Below, piece by piece: positions 32,149 through 43,304 of a stretch of 64,000 nt of DNA. The position numbers were made by a program, and so were the translations under genes. Position 1 is the first letter of the stretch. The number at the start of each line of letters is the position of its first letter. The notes under the pieces were generated by a model. It saw only the letters and a program-made list of their open reading frames with translations. It had not been told where the DNA came from and did not search any database. Source of the stretch: Gemmatimonadaceae bacterium (GTDB taxonomy: Bacteria; Gemmatimonadota; Gemmatimonadetes; Gemmatimonadales; Gemmatimonadaceae); assembly GCA_020851035.1 (NCBI GenBank), contig JADZDM010000021.1, positions 496,001 to 560,000 of the forward strand, in the 5' to 3' direction.

Positions 32149-33450
32149 ATGCACCGCTACTTCGACTTCGCCGGCAACCGCACCAGCTACCGTGCCGAAC
32201 TGCTGGCCGGCCTCACCACGTTCCTGACGATGGCGTACATCATCATCGTCAACCCCGCCATTCTCGAGGCGGCCGGCATCCCGCGCGGACCGTCGATGAC
32301 CGCCACGATCATCTCGGCGGCATTCGGGACGCTGGTGATGGGGGTGTACGCGAAGAAGCCGTTCGCCATCGCCCCGTACATGGGCGAGAACGCGTTCATC
32401 GCCTTCACGGTGGTGAAGGGCATGGGCTTCCCATGGCAGACGGCACTCGGCGCCATCTTCCTCGCCGGCGTGCTGTTCACGGTGCTGACCGTGTTCAAGG
32501 TCCGGAGCTGGCTCGCGAACGCGATTCCCGTCTCGCTCAAGCACAGCTTCGCGGTGGGGATCGGGCTGTTCCTCACCTTCATCGGCCTCAACCAGGTCGG
32601 CGTGGTGTCGCTCGGCGTGCCGGGGGCGCCCGTCGCGCTGGGGAACATCGCGGCGCCCACCACGCTGCTGGCCATCACCGGGTTCGTGGTCACGGCGCTG
32701 CTGCTGGTGAAACGCTGGAGCGGCGCGCTGATCGCGGGCATCCTCGTCACCACGCTGCTGTCGTTCCTGCTCGGCGTCACGCCGCTGCCGGCCACGTTCG
32801 TGAGTGCGCCGCCGAGCCTGGCGCCGATCCTGGGGCAGCTCGACATCGCCGGCGCCCTGTCGGTGCAGGGGCTGCCGATCGTGGTGATCATCTTCATCCT
32901 CGCCTTCGTCGACACGATCGGCACGCTGATCGGGCTCTCGGCGCGCGCGGGCTGGCTGGATGCCGAGGGCAACCTGCCGGGCATCGAGAAGCCGATGATG
33001 GCCGATGCGCTGGTGAACCTGGTGGCCCCGTTCGTGGGCACCACCACCTGCGGTGCGTTCGTGGAATCGGCCGCGGGCATCGAGGCAGGCGGGCGCACCG
33101 GCCTCACCGCGGTGGTGGTGGCGGCGCTGTTCCTCTGCGCCCTCTTCTTCGCCCCGCTGCTGACCATCATCCCGCCGCACGCCTACGGCATCGCACTGGT
33201 GGCCATCGGCATCCTGATGGTGGCCCCGATCGCGAAGCTCGACTTCAGCGACTACACCGAGCTCATACCCGCCTTCCTCACCATCGTCCTGATGAGCTTC
33301 ACGTTCAACGTGGGCGTGGGCATGACGGCAGGTTTGCTGCTGTATCCGCTGATGAAGCTGCTCACGGGCCGGGCGCGCGAGGTACCGCCGCCGCTCTGGG
33401 TGCTGGCCGCGATGTCGGTGGTGTTCTTCGCGGTGTATCCGTACCACTGA
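32149..33450 (+). CDS. NCS2-type purine permease (AzgA-like)
   Basis: A 433-residue membrane protein with about 12 hydrophobic segments. The N-terminus (FDFAGNRTSYRAELLAGLTTFL) and NPAILEAAGIPRG are typical of the AzgA/PbuG branch for adenine, guanine or hypoxanthine. Conserved stretches include YMGENAFIAFTVV and GTTTCGAFVESAAGIEAGGRT. It follows the predicted lipoprotein nucleosidase by 70 bases. Together they suggest an adenine salvage route at the cell surface. The substrate is inferred from the family and neighbour. Confidence 0.92.
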   Translation: MHRYFDFAGNRTSYRAELLAGLTTFLTMAYIIIVNPAILEAAGIPRGPSMTATIISAAFGTLVMGVYAKKPFAIAPYMGENAFIAFTVVKGMGFPWQTALGAIFLAGVLFTVLTVFKVRSWLANAIPVSLKHSFAVGIGLFLTFIGLNQVGVVSLGVPGAPVALGNIAAPTTLLAITGFVVTALLLVKRWSGALIAGILVTTLLSFLLGVTPLPATFVSAPPSLAPILGQLDIAGALSVQGLPIVVIIFILAFVDTIGTLIGLSARAGWLDAEGNLPGIEKPMMADALVNLVAPFVGTTTCGAFVESAAGIEAGGRTGLTAVVVAALFLCALFFAPLLTIIPPHAYGIALVAIGILMVAPIAKLDFSDYTELIPAFLTIVLMSFTFNVGVGMTAGLLLYPLMKLLTGRAREVPPPLWVLAAMSVVFFAVYPYH

Positions 33451-33456
33451 GCTGGA

Positions 33457-34416
33457 TCAGAACCAGCGGCGACGCACCCCGAGCATCACGAGGTTCTGCG
33501 AGATCGCCTTGTCGGGATCGTTCGATCGGCGCCACTCGGGCTCGTACGACACGTTCAGCTCCGACGCCCCGAGGCGCACCTGCAGTGCCGCGGCCGGCTG
33601 CAGGCGGTGGTCCACGCGCGGCACATCGCGGTCGTCCACCTCCGCGAAGCGGCCGCTGTAGCGCTGCTGTCGGTACTGCATGCCGAACTCGACGCGCACC
33701 GCACGGCCGAGCGGCATGTCGTAGCTCATCGAGTAGCTGGAGCGCCGGTAGTCGAACCGGTCGCCGACCGCGAGATTCCGCTCGATGCGTGCCTCCGTCT
33801 CGAACTCGGCACCATCCATGAAGCGGTGGCGGAACTCGGCGGTGACGTAGCGATTCGTGGCATCCTGCATCGAGTCCAACGGGAAGCGCCGCCAGCGCTG
33901 CGCTGCGCCGAGGCGGAGCCGGCGTGCACTGCCGAGCCGGAACTCGGTGGTCGGCACGAGCTGGAGCTGGTTGGAGACGTCCCGGTCCTCGGACGACCCC
34001 TTCAGCGCGCCTTCGGTCACCAGCTCGAGCGTCCACCACCGCACCACCCGCCGTGACAGTGTGGTGCGCAAGCGCTGGCTCACCCGGTTGAACCGCGTGG
34101 TGGCCGTGTAGCGGTGCACTGCGGCATCGTACTCGAGCTGCAGCAGCGGGCGCACCGCGCCACTCGCCAGCCGCACCGTGCCGCCGCCGATCACTCCCAC
34201 CGACGAGACACCCACCGGGTCGCGGTTCACGTTGTCGTCCAGCCGCGACAGCACGTACGACCCGACCGACAGCGCATGGAACGGCGCCGCGGGCGCGGCG
34301 AGACTGTCCCGCCGCGACGGCGAGACACGCGCCTGCCCATGCACTTTGGCGGCGCCGGCAGCGATGAGCACGAGTGCCACCAGCATCCGCGACGACGACC
34401 TCAGGCCGCAAGCCAT
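33457..34416 (-). CDS. Exported beta-barrel-like protein, last gene of glycan operon
   Basis: A 319-residue protein with a signal peptide (about 1-28, ending AKVHGQ). The body alternates hydrophobic and polar residues in strand-length blocks and ends LGVRRRWF, a terminal aromatic typical of outer-membrane barrels. No family is recognised; it is not a clear TolC or OPX exporter. Start 34416 overlaps the preceding kinase gene by 16 bases; an ATG at 34386 is an alternative. It closes a six-gene overlapping operon, so an outer-membrane role in the same pathway is possible. Confidence 0.7.
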   Translation of the reverse strand: MACGLRSSSRMLVALVLIAAGAAKVHGQARVSPSRRDSLAAPAAPFHALSVGSYVLSRLDDNVNRDPVGVSSVGVIGGGTVRLASGAVRPLLQLEYDAAVHRYTATTRFNRVSQRLRTTLSRRVVRWWTLELVTEGALKGSSEDRDVSNQLQLVPTTEFRLGSARRLRLGAAQRWRRFPLDSMQDATNRYVTAEFRHRFMDGAEFETEARIERNLAVGDRFDYRRSSYSMSYDMPLGRAVRVEFGMQYRQQRYSGRFAEVDDRDVPRVDHRLQPAAALQVRLGASELNVSYEPEWRRSNDPDKAISQNLVMLGVRRRWF

Positions 34417-36722
34417 GCCGGCACCTCCATCAATGCCGCGAGTTCGAGTCGCGGACCGCACTCCGCCAGGCGGTCGCCCAGCATCGACAGGTGGGCGGGC
34501 AGGAACGCCGCGCGGTCCGTGTGACGTGAGGCGATCTCCAGCAGCCGGCCGAGTGCCAGGAAGACATGGCGCACGATCGCATCCTCGGTGATGCTCCCGG
34601 CGGCGCGCACGACCATCTCGGCCGAGAAGGCGACGCAGAACTCGGACACCACCCGTGCCGCGATCCCGCCGCGCCACTGGAGCTCGAGCAGGTGCGCGAC
34701 GAGGTTGCCGCAATCGAGCGCCGGATCGCCGGTCGCGACCAGGTCGAGGTCCACCAGCAGGCAGCGGCCCTCGTGCACCAGCACCTGGTCGTGGTACAGG
34801 TCGCGGTGCAGCACGGCGACATGGTCCCGCGCGGCGAGCGGCGCGGCCACACCGTCGAGCCGCTCCATGATCCAGAGGAGCGGACGGGCGTGCTCCGGCT
34901 GCGCCAGGCGCAGTGACGCAAGGCGGGTGCGCAGGATGCGCAGTTCGTCGTCCAGCGTCCAGGCACGACCGGGATGCACGTCGAGCTCGTGGACACGGCT
35001 CACCGACTGTGCCAGTGCCGCTGCCAGCGTGCCCGGATTTCCGCCCTGCGCCAGCGCCGTCACCAGCGGCACACCGGGCAGGCGCCGCTGCAAGGTCATC
35101 CGCAGGCCGTCCACCACGCCGAGCGGCTCGGCGATCACGTCGCGGGCGCCGGCATCCCACAACATCCGGTGCACGATGGCGGCGCGTGAGTCCACACCCC
35201 GCGCGCGCACCTTGCCGAGCCAGGTGGACGTGGCGCCGCCGTCACACACCTCGAACGACACCATGCAGCGGCGGCCGGCCTTGTGCCGCACCAGCGCGGT
35301 CGACGCAACCTGCACGTCGTCGACGGCTGGACTGGAGTGCCGTTGCGCGAGCACCCGGGTCGCCGTCTCCGGACTGGCGAGCGCGGTCGCGAATGCCAAT
35401 GCCGTGTCGTCGCCGAGCCGGGCCCACGCGCGCAGCTCCACCGGCTTCACCGGCGTGCAGCTACCGGTGCGGCGCGGCCGGATCGCACCGGGAATGCCGT
35501 CGAGCAGCGACTGCGCGCGCGCCACCAGCCGCTCGGTCAACGTCGGCCAGTCGGGGTCACGGTGGCGGAAGGGATGCGGCGTGAGCCGCATCAGCGCCTC
35601 GGCGGTGCGCCAGGTGAACCGCCGCATGTCCACGGCACGGCTGCGGCCGTAGCCGTCCAGCAGCGCCGCGACCAGGGCCGTGGCGCGCTCGCGCGTGCAC
35701 CCCCGGCGCAGCACGTCGCGCTCGAGGTGCGCCGCGAAGATCGCGAGGTCGATGTGGGGGTCGGAGAGTGTGCACTCGTCGAAGTCGAGCAGCGAGATGG
35801 TGCCGTCGTGCACGAGCACCTGCTTGGCGTAGAAGTCCCCGTGGATCGGGGTCACCGGTGCCGGCGACTCGGCGCGCAACTGCGCCAGCCGGCCCACCAG
35901 CAGGCGCAGCGGCTCGCGTACCACCGGCGACCAGCCGCTCACGGCAGCCGCGACGCGGTGCAGCCCGACGTTGGCATCGGCGTCGGTCTCCCCCGCCCGC
36001 ACATCCATCGTCCCGTCGTGCACCGCCGCCAGCGCCGCGCCCGCCGCGCTGACGTGGTCCAGAGGATCGGCACGCAGGTCCAGCAGGCGGCCGCCGATCC
36101 ACGGTGCGACGATCACGCCCCGCTTTGCCTCCCATGCCGTGGCGGGACTCACGGGCAAGTGCGGCAGGCGCGCCAGCGCGCGATGGGCCGTCAGGGCATT
36201 CGCGAACGCCACTCCGTCATGGCACTTGATGACGGCCACCGGCTCGCCGCGCACCTGCGCCATCGCCACCAGCCGCCGCTCCGGCTTGTAGGCGATCACG
36301 CGGAACGTGCACGCCGCCGGCAGGCCCAGTGTGGCCAGGACCTGTTCCCGTCGCGCCGGGTCGAGCAGCCACCGCGGACCGGCGAGTTCGCCGTCGTTCG
36401 GGAATCGGCGGATCGCGATGCGCTCGTCCGCACACGACACAACCCGAGAGCTCTCCCGGTACTTCGCCCACTTCTCGTGCGCCTCGGTGCCGACCGCCTT
36501 CAGCGTCACGAACGCGGCCGCCTCGCCATCGTCGTACTGCAGCGACACCAGGCAACTCGCCCCGGGCTTGTAGCGCGTGTAGGTCATGCGCGGCGCGCCC
36601 GCCGGCGGGTCGGGCAGCATTGCGGCCACCAGCGCGGCCGCCGCCTCGACGTCCAGCACCGTGGCGAGGCCGGGAAGCGCGCGGTCGCGCACGGCGACGA
36701 CGCGGTCAGATGGCGAGAGCAT
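34401..36722 (-). CDS. Double aminoglycoside-phosphotransferase-like kinase
   Basis: A 773-residue protein with two complete APH-type kinase C-lobes. Lobe one has HGDFYAKQ (His294, Asp296, Gln301) and DFD (313-315); lobe two has HRDLYHDQ (639-646) and DLD (658-660). The usual metal-binding Asn of HxDxxxxN is Gln in both. An N-lobe strand motif of the type YKPG-x2-C appears near 50 (RYKPGASCLV), 145 (YKPERRLV) and 480 (RHKAGRRCMV), so three N-lobe-like segments serve two C-lobes. Related kinases phosphorylate sugars or small molecules; the substrate here is unknown. It overlaps both neighbours. Confidence 0.85.
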   Translation of the reverse strand: MLSPSDRVVAVRDRALPGLATVLDVEAAAALVAAMLPDPPAGAPRMTYTRYKPGASCLVSLQYDDGEAAAFVTLKAVGTEAHEKWAKYRESSRVVSCADERIAIRRFPNDGELAGPRWLLDPARREQVLATLGLPAACTFRVIAYKPERRLVAMAQVRGEPVAVIKCHDGVAFANALTAHRALARLPHLPVSPATAWEAKRGVIVAPWIGGRLLDLRADPLDHVSAAGAALAAVHDGTMDVRAGETDADANVGLHRVAAAVSGWSPVVREPLRLLVGRLAQLRAESPAPVTPIHGDFYAKQVLVHDGTISLLDFDECTLSDPHIDLAIFAAHLERDVLRRGCTRERATALVAALLDGYGRSRAVDMRRFTWRTAEALMRLTPHPFRHRDPDWPTLTERLVARAQSLLDGIPGAIRPRRTGSCTPVKPVELRAWARLGDDTALAFATALASPETATRVLAQRHSSPAVDDVQVASTALVRHKAGRRCMVSFEVCDGGATSTWLGKVRARGVDSRAAIVHRMLWDAGARDVIAEPLGVVDGLRMTLQRRLPGVPLVTALAQGGNPGTLAAALAQSVSRVHELDVHPGRAWTLDDELRILRTRLASLRLAQPEHARPLLWIMERLDGVAAPLAARDHVAVLHRDLYHDQVLVHEGRCLLVDLDLVATGDPALDCGNLVAHLLELQWRGGIAARVVSEFCVAFSAEMVVRAAGSITEDAIVRHVFLALGRLLEIASRHTDRAAFLPAHLSMLGDRLAECGPRLELAALMEVPAWLAA

Positions 36723-38541
36723 GTGTCACCGGGAGGGGAACGGGGGAATCGGGCATGCGGGAGGCGTGTTCGCGATACCAGGCCGCGAAGGCGCCGCCCG
36801 ACCGGAGCAGCACGTCGGGGGCACCCTGCTCGACGATCCCGCCATCGCCCACCACCAGCACGCGGTCTGCGCGCGCCGCCATGTGCAGCGCATGCGTGAT
36901 CAGCAGCGTCGTGCGCCCCTTGGTCAGCCGCAGGATCGCCTCGCTCACCAGGCGCTCGTTCTCGTCGTCCAGGCCCACCGTCGGCTCGTCCAGCACCAGC
37001 ATCGGCGTGGCGCGCAGCACCGCACGGGCGATGGCGATCCGCTGCCGCTGCCCGTTGGACAGCGTCACGCCCCGCTCGCCGACGCGCGAGTCCAGCCCGT
37101 CCGGCATCGCACGCACGAACGCATCGGCACTGGCCACCCGCAGCGCCATGTCGAGCAGGGCGTCATCCACGCGGGTGGCACCGAGCGTGAGGTTGTCGCG
37201 CACGGTGCCGGCGAACAGCACCGTGTCCTGCAGCACGATCCCCACCTGCGCGCGCAGCGAGCTCACGGTCACGTCCCGCACGTCGATGCCATCCACCAGC
37301 ACACTCCCCGCCGTCGGTTCATAGAGCCGCAGCAGGAGGTTCGCGATGGTGGACTTGCCGGCACCCGAGGCCCCCACGATCGCCACCAGTTCGCCGGCCT
37401 CGATCCGGAACGACGTGTCGGACAGCACCGTGCGGCCGCCGGGATACGCGAACGAGAGGTTGCGGAACTCGATCGTCCCCCGGAACGGCGGTGCGGCCAC
37501 GGCACCTGGACTGTCACCGATGCCGATCTCGTGGTCCATCACCTCCAGCACGCGCTCCGCCGCCGCCGTGGCCTTGCCGAGGCGCCCGGTGTACTTCGCG
37601 AAGCTCTGCAGTGGCTTGAACGCCGCCTTCAGGTACGACACGAACACCACCAGCTCGCCGGCCGACATCGTGCCACGCATCACCCGCAGCGTCCCCTGCC
37701 AGAGCAACACGCCGGTGGAGATGGCGATCAGCACGTCCACGCTGCGCTCGAGCCCCGCCGACAGCCGCTTGGCCTGCACGCCCTGGCTGGCACTCTTCGT
37801 GTTCTGGCGTGTGAACGCTTTGCCCAGCACCTCCTCCAGCGAGAGGGCCTGCACGGTCTTGATGGCCGAGAACGACTCGGCCACCGTGGCCGCGATCGCC
37901 CCCTCGCGCTGGCGCTGCGCCCGCGAGACCTCGCGGATCGAGCGATGCGTGCGCGCCCAGCGCAGGAGGAAGAAGGGCAGCGGCACCAGCGCCAGCGCCG
38001 TCAGCGACGGCTGCATCCAGAACATCATGCCGAGCATGCCCACCAGCATGCCGGCGTCGGCGGCCAGCGGCAGCGCCGCCGTCAGCGCCACGTCCTGCAG
38101 CATGCCCACGTCGCTGGTGAGCCGCACCGTGAGGTCACCGGTGCGGGCCGCCGTGTGGAACGACAGCGGCAGCAACTGCAGCCGGCGATAGAGCGAGGCG
38201 CGCAGCGAGGCGAGCACGCGGTTGGCGGCGAGTGCCAGCGCCACCGTCTGCACGTATCCGCTCACGGCCCGCAGGGCGACCACCAGCAGCAGCGCCACGG
38301 CGGCCGACAACGCGAGCTGCTCCACCGGCAGGGCCGGCACCCAGCGCGTGGTGTGCGCCGTGGTGCCGGGCAGCAACTGGTCGAAGATCAGCTTGAGCGG
38401 CCACGGCTCCAGCGCGCGCAACGCCACCTCGCCCAGCAGCGCGACGGCGCCGACCAGCAACGTCCATCGTTCCCGCCGGAGCGGTTCCCGCACATGGCGC
38501 GCCAGCCGGAGCATCGCCCAGCGATCGATGCGGCGGCTCAT
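36706..38541 (-). CDS. ABC exporter, fused membrane and ATPase domains
   Basis: A 611-residue half-transporter of the ABCB/MsbA type. The N-terminal 330 residues hold six membrane helices (LRALEPWPLKLIFDQLLPG near the start). The ATPase has Walker A GASGAGKST, a signature LSNGQRQR (Asn in place of the first Gly of LSGGQ) and Walker B MLVLDEPT. Exporters of this class move lipids, peptides, glycolipids or drugs, usually as homodimers. The start at 38541 overlaps the stop of the upstream glycosyltransferase (ATGA). Given its operon, a glycosylated product is the likely cargo, by inference. Confidence 0.92.
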   Translation of the reverse strand: MSRRIDRWAMLRLARHVREPLRRERWTLLVGAVALLGEVALRALEPWPLKLIFDQLLPGTTAHTTRWVPALPVEQLALSAAVALLLVVALRAVSGYVQTVALALAANRVLASLRASLYRRLQLLPLSFHTAARTGDLTVRLTSDVGMLQDVALTAALPLAADAGMLVGMLGMMFWMQPSLTALALVPLPFFLLRWARTHRSIREVSRAQRQREGAIAATVAESFSAIKTVQALSLEEVLGKAFTRQNTKSASQGVQAKRLSAGLERSVDVLIAISTGVLLWQGTLRVMRGTMSAGELVVFVSYLKAAFKPLQSFAKYTGRLGKATAAAERVLEVMDHEIGIGDSPGAVAAPPFRGTIEFRNLSFAYPGGRTVLSDTSFRIEAGELVAIVGASGAGKSTIANLLLRLYEPTAGSVLVDGIDVRDVTVSSLRAQVGIVLQDTVLFAGTVRDNLTLGATRVDDALLDMALRVASADAFVRAMPDGLDSRVGERGVTLSNGQRQRIAIARAVLRATPMLVLDEPTVGLDDENERLVSEAILRLTKGRTTLLITHALHMAARADRVLVVGDGGIVEQGAPDVLLRSGGAFAAWYREHASRMPDSPVPLPVTHALAI

Positions 38542-39704
38542 GCGCTCACCCGCGTGGCCTGCTGCGCACGGCAGGCCCGGCCCAGCATGCGCGCCACCAC
38601 GGCGTCCCACGTGCGCGTCGCCATCGCCTCGCACCGGCCTGCCTCGCCCAGCGCGCGACGCCGTGCGGGGTCCGCATGCAGCGCGAGGCACGCGTCCACG
38701 CAGGCCCCGACGTCGCCCGGCGGCACCAGCACCCCGGTGCGCCCCTGGTCGATCAGCGACGGGATCTGCCCGATGTCGCTGGCCACCACCGCGATGCCGG
38801 CGGCCATGTACTCCACCACCTTGAGCGGCGAGAAATAGAACGGGGCATCCGCCGGATACGGCGCCAGCGCCACGTCCATGCGCGCCAGCCACGGCCCGAC
38901 CCACTCCGGCGGTACGGCCCCGGCGAACTCCACCGCGCCGGCGTCGTGCGCCGCACCGAGTGTCGCCTGCAGCGCGCCGCGCTCCGGGCCATCACCCACC
39001 ACCAGCAGCCGTGCCGACGGGAGCTGCGCCTGCACCCCGGCGAACACCGCCGCCAGCGTCTCGATGCCGTGCCACGGCTTGAGCGTGCCGAGAAAGCCGA
39101 TCGTGAACGGCTCGTCGGCCTGCCGCTCGATCCCGGCGAACCGCACCGGGTCGAAACCGTTCGCCTCCACCACCGCATCCGTGCGACGGCGCGGGAAGCC
39201 GTTCACGTACGCCGCCACCTCGTGCGACACCGCCACGATGCTGGACGCCGCCGCGAACACCTCGGACGCCACCCGTTCCGCCCCCTCGCGATCGGCGAGC
39301 GACCGGTGCGTGGCCTGCTCCTCGATCAGCGGCGCATTCACCTCCAGGATGCCCGGCACGCCATGTGCCCGGGCATACTGCATCCCGGCCGCACTCCAGA
39401 GGGAATAGCGCTCGTACACGACGTCGAAGTGCCCGCGCGCATTGAGGGCGTCCACGAGCGACTCGTTCACGGCCGCGATCCACCGGCTGCTGCTGCCGGC
39501 GTCCGCGGCGGCAGGCACCGTCACCTGGTGCACCGCCACCTGCGCCGCCCACTGCGGTGCATCGGCGCCCACCCGGGCGCAGAAGAGCTGTACCTCGTGG
39601 CCTGCCCGGAGCATCGCCGCGATCACCCCCTGCACATGCACCGACGCACCCTTGCGCCCGAACACGGGAATGCCCGCGTCCATGCAGACGTACGCGATGC
39701 GCAT
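38538..39704 (-). CDS. GT4-family glycosyltransferase
   Basis: A 388-residue cytoplasmic GT-B enzyme. The N-terminal MRIAYVCMDAGIPVFGRKGASVHV is the acceptor-side Rossmann fold of GT4. The C-terminal domain has IGFLGTLKPWHGIETL, LLVVGDGPERGAL and the donor-site YPADAPFYFSPLKVVEYMA with the E of the GT4 E-x7-E pattern. The sugar donor cannot be read from sequence. It shares one base with the upstream glycosyltransferase stop and four with the ABC exporter start. Confidence 0.9.
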   Translation of the reverse strand: MRIAYVCMDAGIPVFGRKGASVHVQGVIAAMLRAGHEVQLFCARVGADAPQWAAQVAVHQVTVPAAADAGSSSRWIAAVNESLVDALNARGHFDVVYERYSLWSAAGMQYARAHGVPGILEVNAPLIEEQATHRSLADREGAERVASEVFAAASSIVAVSHEVAAYVNGFPRRRTDAVVEANGFDPVRFAGIERQADEPFTIGFLGTLKPWHGIETLAAVFAGVQAQLPSARLLVVGDGPERGALQATLGAAHDAGAVEFAGAVPPEWVGPWLARMDVALAPYPADAPFYFSPLKVVEYMAAGIAVVASDIGQIPSLIDQGRTGVLVPPGDVGACVDACLALHADPARRRALGEAGRCEAMATRTWDAVVARMLGRACRAQQATRVSA

Positions 39705-40933
39705 CAGGAGGCCCTCGCGACAGGATGGGCCACCCGCCCGCCGAACAGCGCGCGCAGCTGGCGGGTGTTGCGTCGCACGTCGAACTCGCGTTCGATCAGC
39801 GCGCGGGCGTGGCGCGCGAGGCGCAGCTGGAGCGCCGGCGACTGCAGCAGGGCCTGCAGCGCATCGGCCAGCGCGGCCGGATCACGCTCGGGCACCAGCA
39901 GCCCGGTGTCGTCGTGCCGCACCACCTCGGGAATCCCGACGATGTCGGTGGACACCACCGGCGTGCCGAGCGCCATCGACTCCAGGAGCACCGTGGGCAG
40001 CCCGTCGCGATCCCCATCCCCCGCCACCACGCTGGGGGCCGCGAACACGGCCGCGTTGCGCACCTCGTCGATCACACGGGGCTGTGGCAGCGGGCCGGGC
40101 AGCAGCATGCAGGCGTCGAGGCCGAGGGTGGTGACGAGGTGACGGATCGCCGGCTCCTCCGCGCCACCGCCGATGATCGCACACTCGAACGGCACGCCAC
40201 GCGCACGCAGCAGCGCGCAGGCCCGCACCAGGTCGTCCAGCCCCTTCTTCGCCACCATGCGGCCCACCGTCACGATCCGCGGCGCGCGCTGCACGGGGGC
40301 GCGGTACGCGAAGCGCTCGAGGTCGAGCCCGTTGTAGATGCGCGTCAGGCGACCCCGATCGATGCCCACCGTCTGCGCGAGGTACTCGACGTTGAAGTCA
40401 CTCACCGTCACCACCTGCTGCGCCGCCCCCAGCACCTCCTGCAGCCGCGGCAGCGAGACGGTCTCGTGGTAGATGTCCTTGGCGTGCGCAGTGACCGTGA
40501 ACGGCACCCGGGCCCACGCCGACGCCAGCATCGCGACCTCGGCGGCGATGGTGGCGAAGTGCGCGTGCACGTGGGTGATGCCGCGGCGCACGAGCTCCCG
40601 CGCCAGGGTGGCGCCCTGGTGCACCGTGCGCGCGTCGGAGCCGCGGGCCCGGTCCATCGTACGCCAGATGGCCGGCAGCTCGGCGGCTGCCCCCTCGATG
40701 GCGCCCCACAGGTCCACGCCGCGCAGTCCGTCCGCCGTGAGGTAGGTCACGGGGGCCCGCACCCGCGAGATCGCGTCCTGGAAGTGGGTGTCGTTCGGTG
40801 CGTAGAGCGAGAAGATCGACACCTCCGTTCCCGCCGCCTCGTGGGCGAGGATCTCGTTCACGATGAAGGTCTCGGAGAAGCGCGGGTACCGCTTCACGAC
40901 GTACGCGATGCGCGCCGGCCTCTCAGCTCGCAT
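39704..40933 (-). CDS. GT4-family glycosyltransferase
   Basis: A 409-residue GT-B enzyme. It begins RIAYVVKRYPRFSETFIVNE, common in GT4 enzymes of exopolysaccharide clusters, and has HVHAHFATIAAEVAMLAS. The C-terminal domain contains VTVGRMVAKKGLDDLVRA, AIIGGGAEEPAIRHL and the donor motif DGLPTVLLESMALGTPVVST. The ATG at 40933 is chosen; the frame is open to 40993. It overlaps the COG4671 gene by 11 bases and the next glycosyltransferase by one. Confidence 0.9.
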   Translation of the reverse strand: MRAERPARIAYVVKRYPRFSETFIVNEILAHEAAGTEVSIFSLYAPNDTHFQDAISRVRAPVTYLTADGLRGVDLWGAIEGAAAELPAIWRTMDRARGSDARTVHQGATLARELVRRGITHVHAHFATIAAEVAMLASAWARVPFTVTAHAKDIYHETVSLPRLQEVLGAAQQVVTVSDFNVEYLAQTVGIDRGRLTRIYNGLDLERFAYRAPVQRAPRIVTVGRMVAKKGLDDLVRACALLRARGVPFECAIIGGGAEEPAIRHLVTTLGLDACMLLPGPLPQPRVIDEVRNAAVFAAPSVVAGDGDRDGLPTVLLESMALGTPVVSTDIVGIPEVVRHDDTGLLVPERDPAALADALQALLQSPALQLRLARHARALIEREFDVRRNTRQLRALFGGRVAHPVARAS

Positions 40934-42137
40934 GGGCCACGGCCTCCGGACCGCGACGGGCGATGGTGTGCCGCGGTGCGGTGTCCAGCGCATCGCGGAG
41001 CAGGGCGTGCAGCCCCTCGGGCGTGTGCATCCGCACGCCGCGTGACGCCGCCCGCGACACCGGCTGCGCGAGCCAGGCCTCCAGTGCGCCGGCCGACACC
41101 GCGTCGGGGTGCATCATGTCCACCAGCCCGCGGGCCGCGAGCCGCTCGGCGCGGATGAACTGTTCGGTCCGCGGCACCACCCGCGGCACCACCAGTGCGC
41201 GCGTGCGCGTCGAGAGCACGTCACACACGGAGTTGTAGCCCCCCATCGTGATCACCGAGTGCGCCGCGCGGATGGCGGCGGCCGGGTTGCCGATGAACTC
41301 CACCACCTGCAGCCGCGGGTTGGCGCTCGCCGCCTGCAGCAGCCCCTCGCGCCGTGCGGGTGACATGAGCGGCCCCGTCACCAGCAGGCCGCACAGCGGC
41401 GCCGGGAACGACGTGCGCGCGAAGACCTCCGCCAGCGCCAGCCCATCCTGCCCGCCACCCAGCATGCAGAGCACCGTATCCGCATCCACCCGCTCGGCCG
41501 CCGTGACGGGGGCGTTGGACGCCACACGCGCGCGCTGGTCGAGGTAGCCGGTGTACCGGATCCGCGCGGCAATGTCGTCAGGGAACGAGTACTCCTCCGA
41601 CAGGTCGGCGACACTCTGGTCACCGTAGACCCAGATCGTGTCGAAGTTGCGCTGCACGGCGGTGTAGTTGTCGGCGCGCGTCCACTCCTTCCGCACCTGC
41701 TGCGCGTCGTCGAGGATGTCACGCAGGCCGAGCACGCAGCGGGTGCGGCCGCGGCGGCGGAGGTATGCGAGCGCGGGATCGAGCTCACGGACGGCACCGC
41801 GTGGCACGTTGTCCACCACGAACAGGTCGGGCTCGTAGGCGCGGAGGGCGCCGAGGATGGTCGCGGCGCGGAGGGCGATCACGTCCTCGAGCGGGACCTC
41901 CAGCGACCGGGCGTGGTAGGTGGCCGACGAGTCCTTGTAGATCGCCGGCAGGCTGATCACGTCGATCCCGCGCGCGACGGCGAAGCGGGTGACCTCACGC
42001 GATCCCGAGAGCAGCAGCACATTGGGCCGGAGCGGGCTCGCGGCGAGCTCTTCAGCCAGCAGGAGGTTCCGCCGCATGTGGCCGAGGCCCATCGTATCGT
42101 GCGAGTAGAGCGCTATGCGCAGGTGGCGCTGTGTCAT
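40923..42137 (-). CDS. Predicted glycosyltransferase, COG4671 type
   Basis: A 404-residue GT-B protein, first in the operon. The N-terminus RIALYSHDTMGLGHMRRNLLLAEEL is characteristic of COG4671, a MurG/GT28-related family. The C-terminal half has VLCMLGGGQDG, LLVTGPLM and ITMGGYNSVCDVLS, as in UDP-sugar-binding GT28 domains. Donor and acceptor are unknown. ATG 42137 is chosen over the frame's far start at 42221. The 220 bases upstream hold a small hairpin (42225-42249) and presumably the operon promoter. Confidence 0.87.
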   Translation of the reverse strand: MTQRHLRIALYSHDTMGLGHMRRNLLLAEELAASPLRPNVLLLSGSREVTRFAVARGIDVISLPAIYKDSSATYHARSLEVPLEDVIALRAATILGALRAYEPDLFVVDNVPRGAVRELDPALAYLRRRGRTRCVLGLRDILDDAQQVRKEWTRADNYTAVQRNFDTIWVYGDQSVADLSEEYSFPDDIAARIRYTGYLDQRARVASNAPVTAAERVDADTVLCMLGGGQDGLALAEVFARTSFPAPLCGLLVTGPLMSPARREGLLQAASANPRLQVVEFIGNPAAAIRAAHSVITMGGYNSVCDVLSTRTRALVVPRVVPRTEQFIRAERLAARGLVDMMHPDAVSAGALEAWLAQPVSRAASRGVRMHTPEGLHALLRDALDTAPRHTIARRGPEAVAHAS

Positions 42138-42357: not shown

Positions 42358-42786
42358 TCAGTTCACACGGACGGTCAGCGTCGATGGCTGCGCAGTGGCG
42401 CCGCTGCCCGTGCCGGTGATCGTGACGCCGTAGGTGCCGGGCGCCACCGCCGCCCCCACCACCACGGTCACCGATGTCGACACGTTGCCGGCCGCGACCG
42501 GCGACGAGCCGAACGTCACTGTCATGGCGCTCGGCTGTCCCGACGCGGCAAGCGTCACGGGTCCTGAGAAGGCGCCACCGCGGGTGACACCCAGCCCGAC
42601 ACTCCCGCTGCTGCCCGCCGCCAGGGTCACGCTGGCCGGCGTGAGCCGCACCTCGATCGTGCCCTGCGGCACCGGGTCGACGGGTGCGTCCCCGCCATCG
42701 GAGTTGCACGCCGTGAGCAGTGCCGCGGCCACCATGGCGCGCGCCGCGCGGCGGGTCAGCACGATCTGCAGGTTGCTCGGGAACAT
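42358..42786 (-). CDS. Ig-like domain lipoprotein
   Basis: A 142-residue protein. The signal peptide ends in the lipobox ALLTAC (Cys about residue 27), followed by an Asp/Gly/Pro linker. The rest is one Ser/Thr/Val/Gly-rich beta-sandwich (IEVRLTPASVTLAAGSSG, ending TLTVRVN), as in bacterial Ig-like domains. No function is evident. The ATG at 42786 fits the signal; the frame extends to 42951 over the VOC gene. Confidence 0.75.
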   Translation of the reverse strand: MFPSNLQIVLTRRAARAMVAAALLTACNSDGGDAPVDPVPQGTIEVRLTPASVTLAAGSSGSVGLGVTRGGAFSGPVTLAASGQPSAMTVTFGSSPVAAGNVSTSVTVVVGAAVAPGTYGVTITGTGSGATAQPSTLTVRVN

Positions 42787-42881
42787 GTCGGCCGGGGTGA
42801 GGAGGCGGTGCGTGAAGAGGCGGTGCGCGCGAATCCCATGCTTCGCTGTGCGACGGGAGGGACAGGCGCCGCGCGTGCGGC

Positions 42882-43304
42882 CTACGCCCCCGAGGAGAAC
42901 ACCAGCATGAACCCGTCGGGGTCCTTCACACGGAAGACCCGTGCCCCCCACGGCGTGTCGGTCGGCGCGGTGGACAGCACACCACCGTCATCCACGATGC
43001 GCCGCGCGATCGCATCCACCGGCAACGCCGTCGTGAACTGCAGCGAGAATCCCGTGCCCTTCACGCGATCCGTGCCCTGCGCGAAGTCGTCCTGCGTGAG
43101 CAGCAGCGTCACCCCGGCCGCGCGCAGTGACACGCCGGACAGGCGCCCCTCACGCTCGTGACGCGTCTCGATCGCGAAGCCGATCACGCGCTGGTACCAG
43201 TCGAGGCTGACCTCCAGGTCGGTGCAGCTCAGCGATGCCGCCAGCGCACTCGCCTCGAAGGGGGGTGGCGGTGCGGCGTCGCGATCCATTGCGAGGGGGC
43301 TCAT
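42882..43304 (-). CDS. VOC (glyoxalase/bleomycin-resistance) protein
   Basis: A 140-residue protein with the betaalphabetabetabeta layout of the vicinal-oxygen-chelate fold: SLSCTDLEVSLDWYQRVIGF, GVSLRAAGVTLLLTQDDF, SLQFTTALPVD and FRVKDPDGFMLVFSSGA, where the last includes a typical metal-ligand Glu position occupied by Met/Leu. Members are metal-dependent lyases, dioxygenases or binding proteins. The substrate is not predictable. It lies 95 bases upstream of the Ig-like lipoprotein on the same strand. Confidence 0.88.
   Translation of the reverse strand: MSPLAMDRDAAPPPPFEASALAASLSCTDLEVSLDWYQRVIGFAIETRHEREGRLSGVSLRAAGVTLLLTQDDFAQGTDRVKGTGFSLQFTTALPVDAIARRIVDDGGVLSTAPTDTPWGARVFRVKDPDGFMLVFSSGA

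Follow-up and report, generated by a model that had tools for sequence, protein, structure and literature searches.

A conserved six-gene operon of glycosyltransferases, an ABCB-type exporter and APH-fold kinases as a candidate module for glycan assembly and export

An operon of six genes on the minus strand (33457–42137) of the window, i.e., the whole stretch of 64,000 nucleotides of DNA from a Gemmatimonadaceae bacterium that was analyzed here, has a gene order that recurs, far beyond chance, in an archaeon and in seven or more bacterial phyla. Its gene content, the overlaps of its genes, the order across phyla, the intact kinase motifs and the occupation of one slot by a lineage-specific barrel are shown. 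On balance, we lean toward the interpretation that the six genes form one co-translated, horizontally mobile and apparently undescribed module for the assembly and export of a glycan, for which the existence of one pathway, the nature of the product as a glycan, the direction of export, the target of phosphorylation and the function of the barrel are inferred.

In the proposed pathway, the three glycosyltransferases A, B and C would build an oligosaccharide or a short glycan in the cytoplasm and the APH-fold kinase(s) of E would add phosphate, either to a sugar acceptor or precursor or to the finished glycan. A homodimer of D would carry the product over the inner membrane, and in diderms the barrel from the last gene (F, OprB-SLH or Alginate_exp) would pass it through the outer membrane. 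It counts against this pathway that the operon contains no gene for a polymerase, an initiating sugar transferase, a lipid carrier or a periplasmic adaptor. Biochemical data are likewise lacking, and the substrates of APH-fold kinases include many non-sugars. Confirmation of the pathway would account for genes that are annotated only as ‘glycosyltransferase’, ‘ABC transporter’ or ‘aminoglycoside phosphotransferase’.

Organization of the operon

Recomputation of the open reading frames resulted in the order A-B-C-D-E-F, with the successive junctions A/B, B/C, C/D, D/E and E/F overlapping by 11, 1, 4, 17 and 16 bases. The first gene of the operon, gene A (40923..42137), encodes a GT28/MurG-like GT-B glycosyltransferase of 404 aa and is followed by two genes for GT4 glycosyltransferases, gene B (39704..40933) and gene C (38538..39704; 388 aa). 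Gene D (36706..38541; 611 aa) encodes an ABCB-type half-exporter composed of TMD and NBD, gene E (34401..36722; 773 aa) a tandem APH-fold kinase and gene F (33457..34416; 319 aa) a protein for which a signal helix and a 14-stranded outer-membrane barrel are predicted by a structure model. The initial annotation had claimed six genes with exactly these overlaps, and this held upon recomputation. Its assignment of the products as three glycosyltransferases, an ABC exporter, a double kinase and a barrel-like protein held as well, with the family of A resting on sub-threshold scores only and the barrel of F on a model.

The open reading frame of gene B opens at 40993, and a start at 40933 is supported because homologues begin near residues 21–28 of this longer frame. 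A scan for consensus sigma-70 promoters and intrinsic terminators gave no hit above chance, so the transcription unit is not shown and a common transcript is an inference from the overlaps. The gene 3′ of F is convergent, and its stop codon, ending at 33450, is separated from F by six bases. A lipoprotein-like open reading frame (42358–42951) lies on the same strand about 220 bases upstream of A and is not part of the conserved set.

Distribution and conservation of the gene order

A search of 118 genomes of the family identified homologues of E in four, including the window’s own. The other three carriers (L016, L017 and L018) keep the order A-B-C-D-E-F, with E being split in L018, and the operon is absent from the searched relatives of the host genus. 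In the phylum, strong matches (above 240 bits) to E2, the second kinase domain of E, occur in 11 of 395 genomes. This patchy distribution is as expected of a transferred module.

For the scan across phyla, an E2 profile was run against a set of about 85,000 species, each represented by one genome, and 80 of the 207 relatives were analyzed together with ten loci from the window’s phylum and from plasmids, i.e., 90 neighborhoods in total. HMM annotation and extraction of the gene order revealed the strict order A-B-C-D-(E1)-E2 in 59 of them, E1 being the first kinase domain; the window itself also meets this order on one strand and adds to these 59 loci. Many of the non-strict neighborhoods are contig ends or rearranged, for example to A-B-C-E2-D. 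By their record titles, the 59 loci belong to Gemmatimonadota, Cyanobacteria, Planctomycetota, Nitrospirota, Myxococcota, Rubrobacter and Pseudomonadota and to one archaeon, Candidatus Methanoperedens nitroreducens (L048). Moreover, nearly all E2 homologues that are located on long contigs adjoin A–D. A synteny check across Gemmatimonadota and other phyla had been proposed along with the initial annotation; it was run with a strongly positive result, and the outcome that would have refuted the reading, an order not conserved in relatives, was not seen.

These data bear on the explanation that ordinary sugar and transport genes were brought together in one operon and share no common product. 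It might be supported by the absence of the operon from the searched relatives of the host genus and by the fact that each gene family is common on its own. However, it is contradicted by the strict order over at least seven phyla plus an archaeon and by E2 being nearly always encoded beside A–D, and it can practically be ruled out.

The operon is also found on plasmids. In E. coli it is present in 18 of 5,426 complete genomes, always plasmid-borne and at least 99% identical; the genes run A-B-C-D-E1-E2, and those for an Alginate_exp barrel and a nucleotide-sugar dehydrogenase come next. A-B-C-D-E is also encoded on Paracoccus and Pseudorhodobacter plasmids. In cyanobacteria, E2 was detected at E ≤ 1e-40 in 18 of 291 genomes, and most of the cyanobacterial operons encode E2 without E1. 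One cyanobacterial carrier is Picosynechococcus sp. PCC 7117 (L055).

A, B, C, D and E2 give inter-locus distances that correlate with one another at 0.86–0.96 (Mantel p 0.001), which supports but does not prove co-inheritance, as a common species history contributes to such correlations. A concatenated tree puts the copy from the E. coli plasmid next to Thauera and that of the window with two other Gemmatimonadota, while the Gemmatimonadota copies L018 and L090 are placed elsewhere; these placements are consistent with transfer.

The barrel F and the barrel slot

For gene F, no Pfam match above the cut-off was obtained. Its structure model (pLDDT 80) shows a signal helix and 14 beta strands and aligns to CymA with a Z of 22.6 and an rmsd of 3.0 over 265 residues and to OmpG with a Z of 20.7. 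F is thus predicted to adopt a 14-strand CymA/OmpG-like porin fold; only the fold is shared, and a function as a pore is inferred.

The slot following E2 is filled by F in Gemmatimonadota, by an OprB-SLH porin in 26 cyanobacterial loci and by Alginate_exp in 11 loci of Pseudomonadota, Nitrospirota and Myxococcota, the latter including a rearranged form with the barrel after D and one locus with the barrel on the opposite strand. Comparison of F with Alginate_exp (PF13372) yielded no Pfam match and a profile comparison probability of 3%, and no relationship among the three families was detected in profile comparisons. Descent of F from a common family with the OprB-SLH or the Alginate_exp barrels was rejected, as these comparisons find no homology. 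In Rubrobacter and in the archaeon Methanoperedens no barrel was seen adjoining the operon. None lies beside the operon in Planctomycetota and some cyanobacteria either, showing that the barrel is not universal in diderms.

The strongest indication that the product passes the outer membrane, itself an inference, is this repeated filling of one slot by non-homologous barrels. It remains possible that these barrels are general porins, which would speak against such a role. The initial annotation had further inferred a shared pathway in which a product is built, phosphorylated and exported. This is supported by the synteny, by the distances and by the 3′ barrel in many diderm lineages, while the product, the target of the kinase and the cargo of the barrel are still inference. 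If the pathway is confirmed, three barrels at one position would constitute a natural experiment on how the exit through the outer membrane can be exchanged.

The tandem kinase E

The protein encoded by gene E is composed of an extra N-terminal domain (residues 1–115), the kinase domain E1 (residues ~116–413; 35484..36377, minus strand) and the kinase domain E2 (residues ~440–767; 34422..35405, minus strand). It is a member of the APH superfamily (PF01636), matching in two stretches with 71.3 bits compared to a gathering cut-off of 23.2. Both domains are intact in their motifs, HGD....Q and DxD in E1 and HRD....Q and DxD in E2, and in an alignment of 15 fused proteins the catalytic motifs HxD....N/Q and DxD are invariant in both. 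Across loci, HGD....Q is present in 32 of 32 E1 sequences and HRD....Q in 83 of 83 E2 sequences, followed by DxD in nearly all. In the window’s protein, D296 and D641 are assigned as the catalytic Asp residues. The count for E2 is partly circular since HRD....Q belonged to the search pattern, whereas the E1 motif did not. The structure model (pLDDT 88) consists of the extra N-terminal domain and two APH-fold kinases. The strands and the YKPG motif of the extra domain (36378–36722) recall the N-lobe of a kinase, giving it the look of a third kinase of which only this lobe is left.

Foldseek returned the mycobacterial maltokinase as top match for E, with glucosamine kinase also ranking high. In a second structural alignment, LxmK, PsiK and the choline, homoserine and methylthioribose kinases scored level with or above maltokinase. 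With choline, homoserine and methylthioribose kinases, LxmK and maltokinase being close to tied, the fold scores do not select a substrate; a sugar or a similar compound is merely guessed from the genomic context. Maltokinase and glucosamine kinase resemble E in the APH fold and the high Foldseek rank, but differ from it in that E carries two kinases in tandem; for an activity of E as a maltokinase, a sugar 1-kinase that phosphorylates maltose, the fold is the only support. Both enzymes belong to the APH superfamily and share the HGD....Q motif with E. None of the operon proteins matched the maltokinase NCBIfam above its cut-off.

Two further assignments of the kinases were rejected. The score against NF038156, the model of the class V lanthipeptide kinase LxmK (50.8 bits), does not reach its cut-off of 315, and a lanthipeptide cluster was discarded because this score is far too low and neither a cyclase nor a precursor was recognized among the identified neighbor clusters. 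Antibiotic resistance by APH was discarded because the kinases occur as dedicated members of the operon. If the proposed pathway is confirmed, glycan export would be added to the roles of APH-fold kinases.

Glycosyltransferases and exporter

Gene A scores 21.2 bits against Glyco_tran_28_C, for which the Pfam cut-off is 22, and matches MurG (1f0k) with E = 4e-4 in a profile comparison. Its assignment as GT28/MurG-like glycosyltransferase is thus inferred from sequence alone by weak, sub-threshold scores. It is 39–57% identical to A of the syntenic loci and is present as one copy in the host genome. Pfam places B and C in the GT4 family, and their closest solved relatives include phosphatidylinositol mannosyltransferases.

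Gene D encodes a fused ABC_membrane and ABC_tran half-transporter according to Pfam and groups with ABCB exporters. It is 63–65% identical to its counterparts in the two closest Gemmatimonadota operons, but at most 35% identical to the other ABCB exporters of the host genome. In a tree of D and these host paralogues the support is 0.56, which is too weak to prove a separate operon clade. The highest NCBIfam score of D is obtained with MsbA (TIGR02203; 391 bits), failing the curated cut-off of 602, and ChvA (TIGR01192) is failed as well (246.8 bits, curated cut-off 585.4).

A possible but less likely alternative is that the product is a glycolipid, such as a phosphorylated glycosyl-lipid. A, B and C would then glycosylate a membrane lipid, D would flip it like MsbA and the barrel would merely be a co-regulated porin. 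The MsbA models giving the highest score for D, the MurG-like nature of A, as the acceptor of MurG is lipid-linked, and the phosphatidylinositol mannosyltransferases among the solved structures nearest to B and C support this view. On the other hand, the MsbA score of D stays under its curated cut-off, and three unrelated barrel families in one slot suggest an exit by a pore, which a flipped glycolipid does not need.

Neighboring genes and clues to the product

Genes associated with the operon favor an acidic or otherwise modified glycan without identifying the product. A UDP-sugar dehydrogenase adjoins the operon in E. coli and, in Sulfitobacter, a sister cluster, a sulfotransferase gene is located between D and E in four Planctomycetota (L073, L075, L076 and L095) and a heparinase II/III protein is encoded in a rearranged Nitrospirota relative. 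The host encodes one clear UDP-glucose/GDP-mannose dehydrogenase, which lies outside the window. Two-component regulators are found beside 38 loci, the cluster being named from one representative.

Several arrangements were observed besides these. Rearranged relatives on plasmids of Candidatus Manganitrophus (L009 and L014) combine heparinase II/III and two kinases with GT28-like enzymes, and separate genes encode the TMD and the NBD of their exporter; the annotation of L009 also lists radical SAM and histidine phosphatase genes. In some cyanobacteria (L031, L032 and L035), a divergent cluster lies back to back with the operon, with A-like glycosyltransferases and a D-like exporter in L032 and L035 and an A-like glycosyltransferase in L031. 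In some cyanobacteria, small secreted-looking proteins (L061, 11084–11650; L055, 11098–11460) are encoded between the operon and the two-component genes, and one of the two shows a weak beta-solenoid match.

The neighborhoods also bear on the explanation that a small glycosylated secondary metabolite is exported and that the kinase first phosphorylates this compound as self-protection. Antibiotic kinases belong to the APH fold, ABCB pumps often export natural products and the spread of the operon is patchy (11 strong matches among 395 genomes of the phylum, 18 of 291 cyanobacteria), all in favor of this explanation. However, no gene that would make a scaffold, such as a PKS, NRPS, RiPP precursor or cyclase, was recognized among the identified neighbor clusters, and the three glycosyltransferases come without an aglycone pathway. 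We consider this alternative unlikely.

Comparison with known systems

The known pathways for bacterial surface glycans are commonly divided into Wzy-, ABC(KpsMT)- and synthase-dependent routes. None of the six operon proteins matched the Wzx flippase or Wzy polymerase families. A KpsMT-type ABC-dependent capsule system, which has an ABC-2 type permease separate from its ATPase and an OPX protein, does not match, since D is a fused ABCB exporter and no OPX protein is present among the six. The synthase-dependent route, with its processive GT2 synthase in the inner membrane, does not match either, all three glycosyltransferases being GT28-like or GT4. The initial claim that Wzx/Wzy, OPX and an initiating sugar transferase are missing held for the six operon genes. 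None of the Wzy, KpsMT, synthase, MsbA and ChvA definitions applies to the operon.

The export of cyclic beta-glucan by ChvA/NdvA shares with the operon an ABCB-type half-exporter, here proposed for an oligosaccharide, and the lack of a Wzx/Wzy route. The operon differs in its three GT-B enzymes, its kinases and its barrel, and it has no cyclic glucan synthase. The lipid A flippase MsbA has the same exporter architecture as D, but the operon comes without lipid A genes and also occurs in an archaeon and in Rubrobacter. In Pseudomonadota, Nitrospirota and Myxococcota, the operon closes with a gene for an Alginate_exp barrel (PF13372) like the AlgE barrel of alginate secretion, whereas no alginate synthase, AlgK or c-di-GMP receptor was recognized among the annotated neighbors of the operon.

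Rhizobial redA-redB clusters and glycosyltransferase-phosphatase clusters of roseobacters and Azospirillum share with the operon the A-B pair, further glycosyltransferases and an ABC transmembrane protein; unlike the operon, they have no kinase. The roseobacter and Azospirillum clusters instead contain a histidine phosphatase, a second A-like glycosyltransferase, a polysaccharide deacetylase and a much larger, distant ABC protein. This sister architecture was observed in L011, L012, L013 and L015, with one ABC protein carrying a cyclic-nucleotide-binding domain, and in R. etli CIAT 652 the sister cluster begins with genes named redA and redB. No published description of the gene set or of the sister architecture was found in the open-access literature searched, which is weak evidence as the search was restricted to open-licence texts. 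The main text of the one paper identified on the E. coli strain with the operon-carrying plasmid does not contain ‘glycosyl’, ‘polysaccharide’ or ‘exopolysaccharide’.

A bolder reading would see in the operon a further general route for glycan secretion in bacteria and archaea, with building by GT-B enzymes, a required phosphorylation of precursor or product by a dedicated APH-type kinase or pair of kinases, export by ABCB and exit by any suitable barrel, recruited independently in different phyla; this we regard as tentative, with the balance tilting slightly against it. As a summary of the comparison, the operon stands outside the three usual routes and yet recurs over phyla, in an archaeon and on plasmids of E. 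coli.
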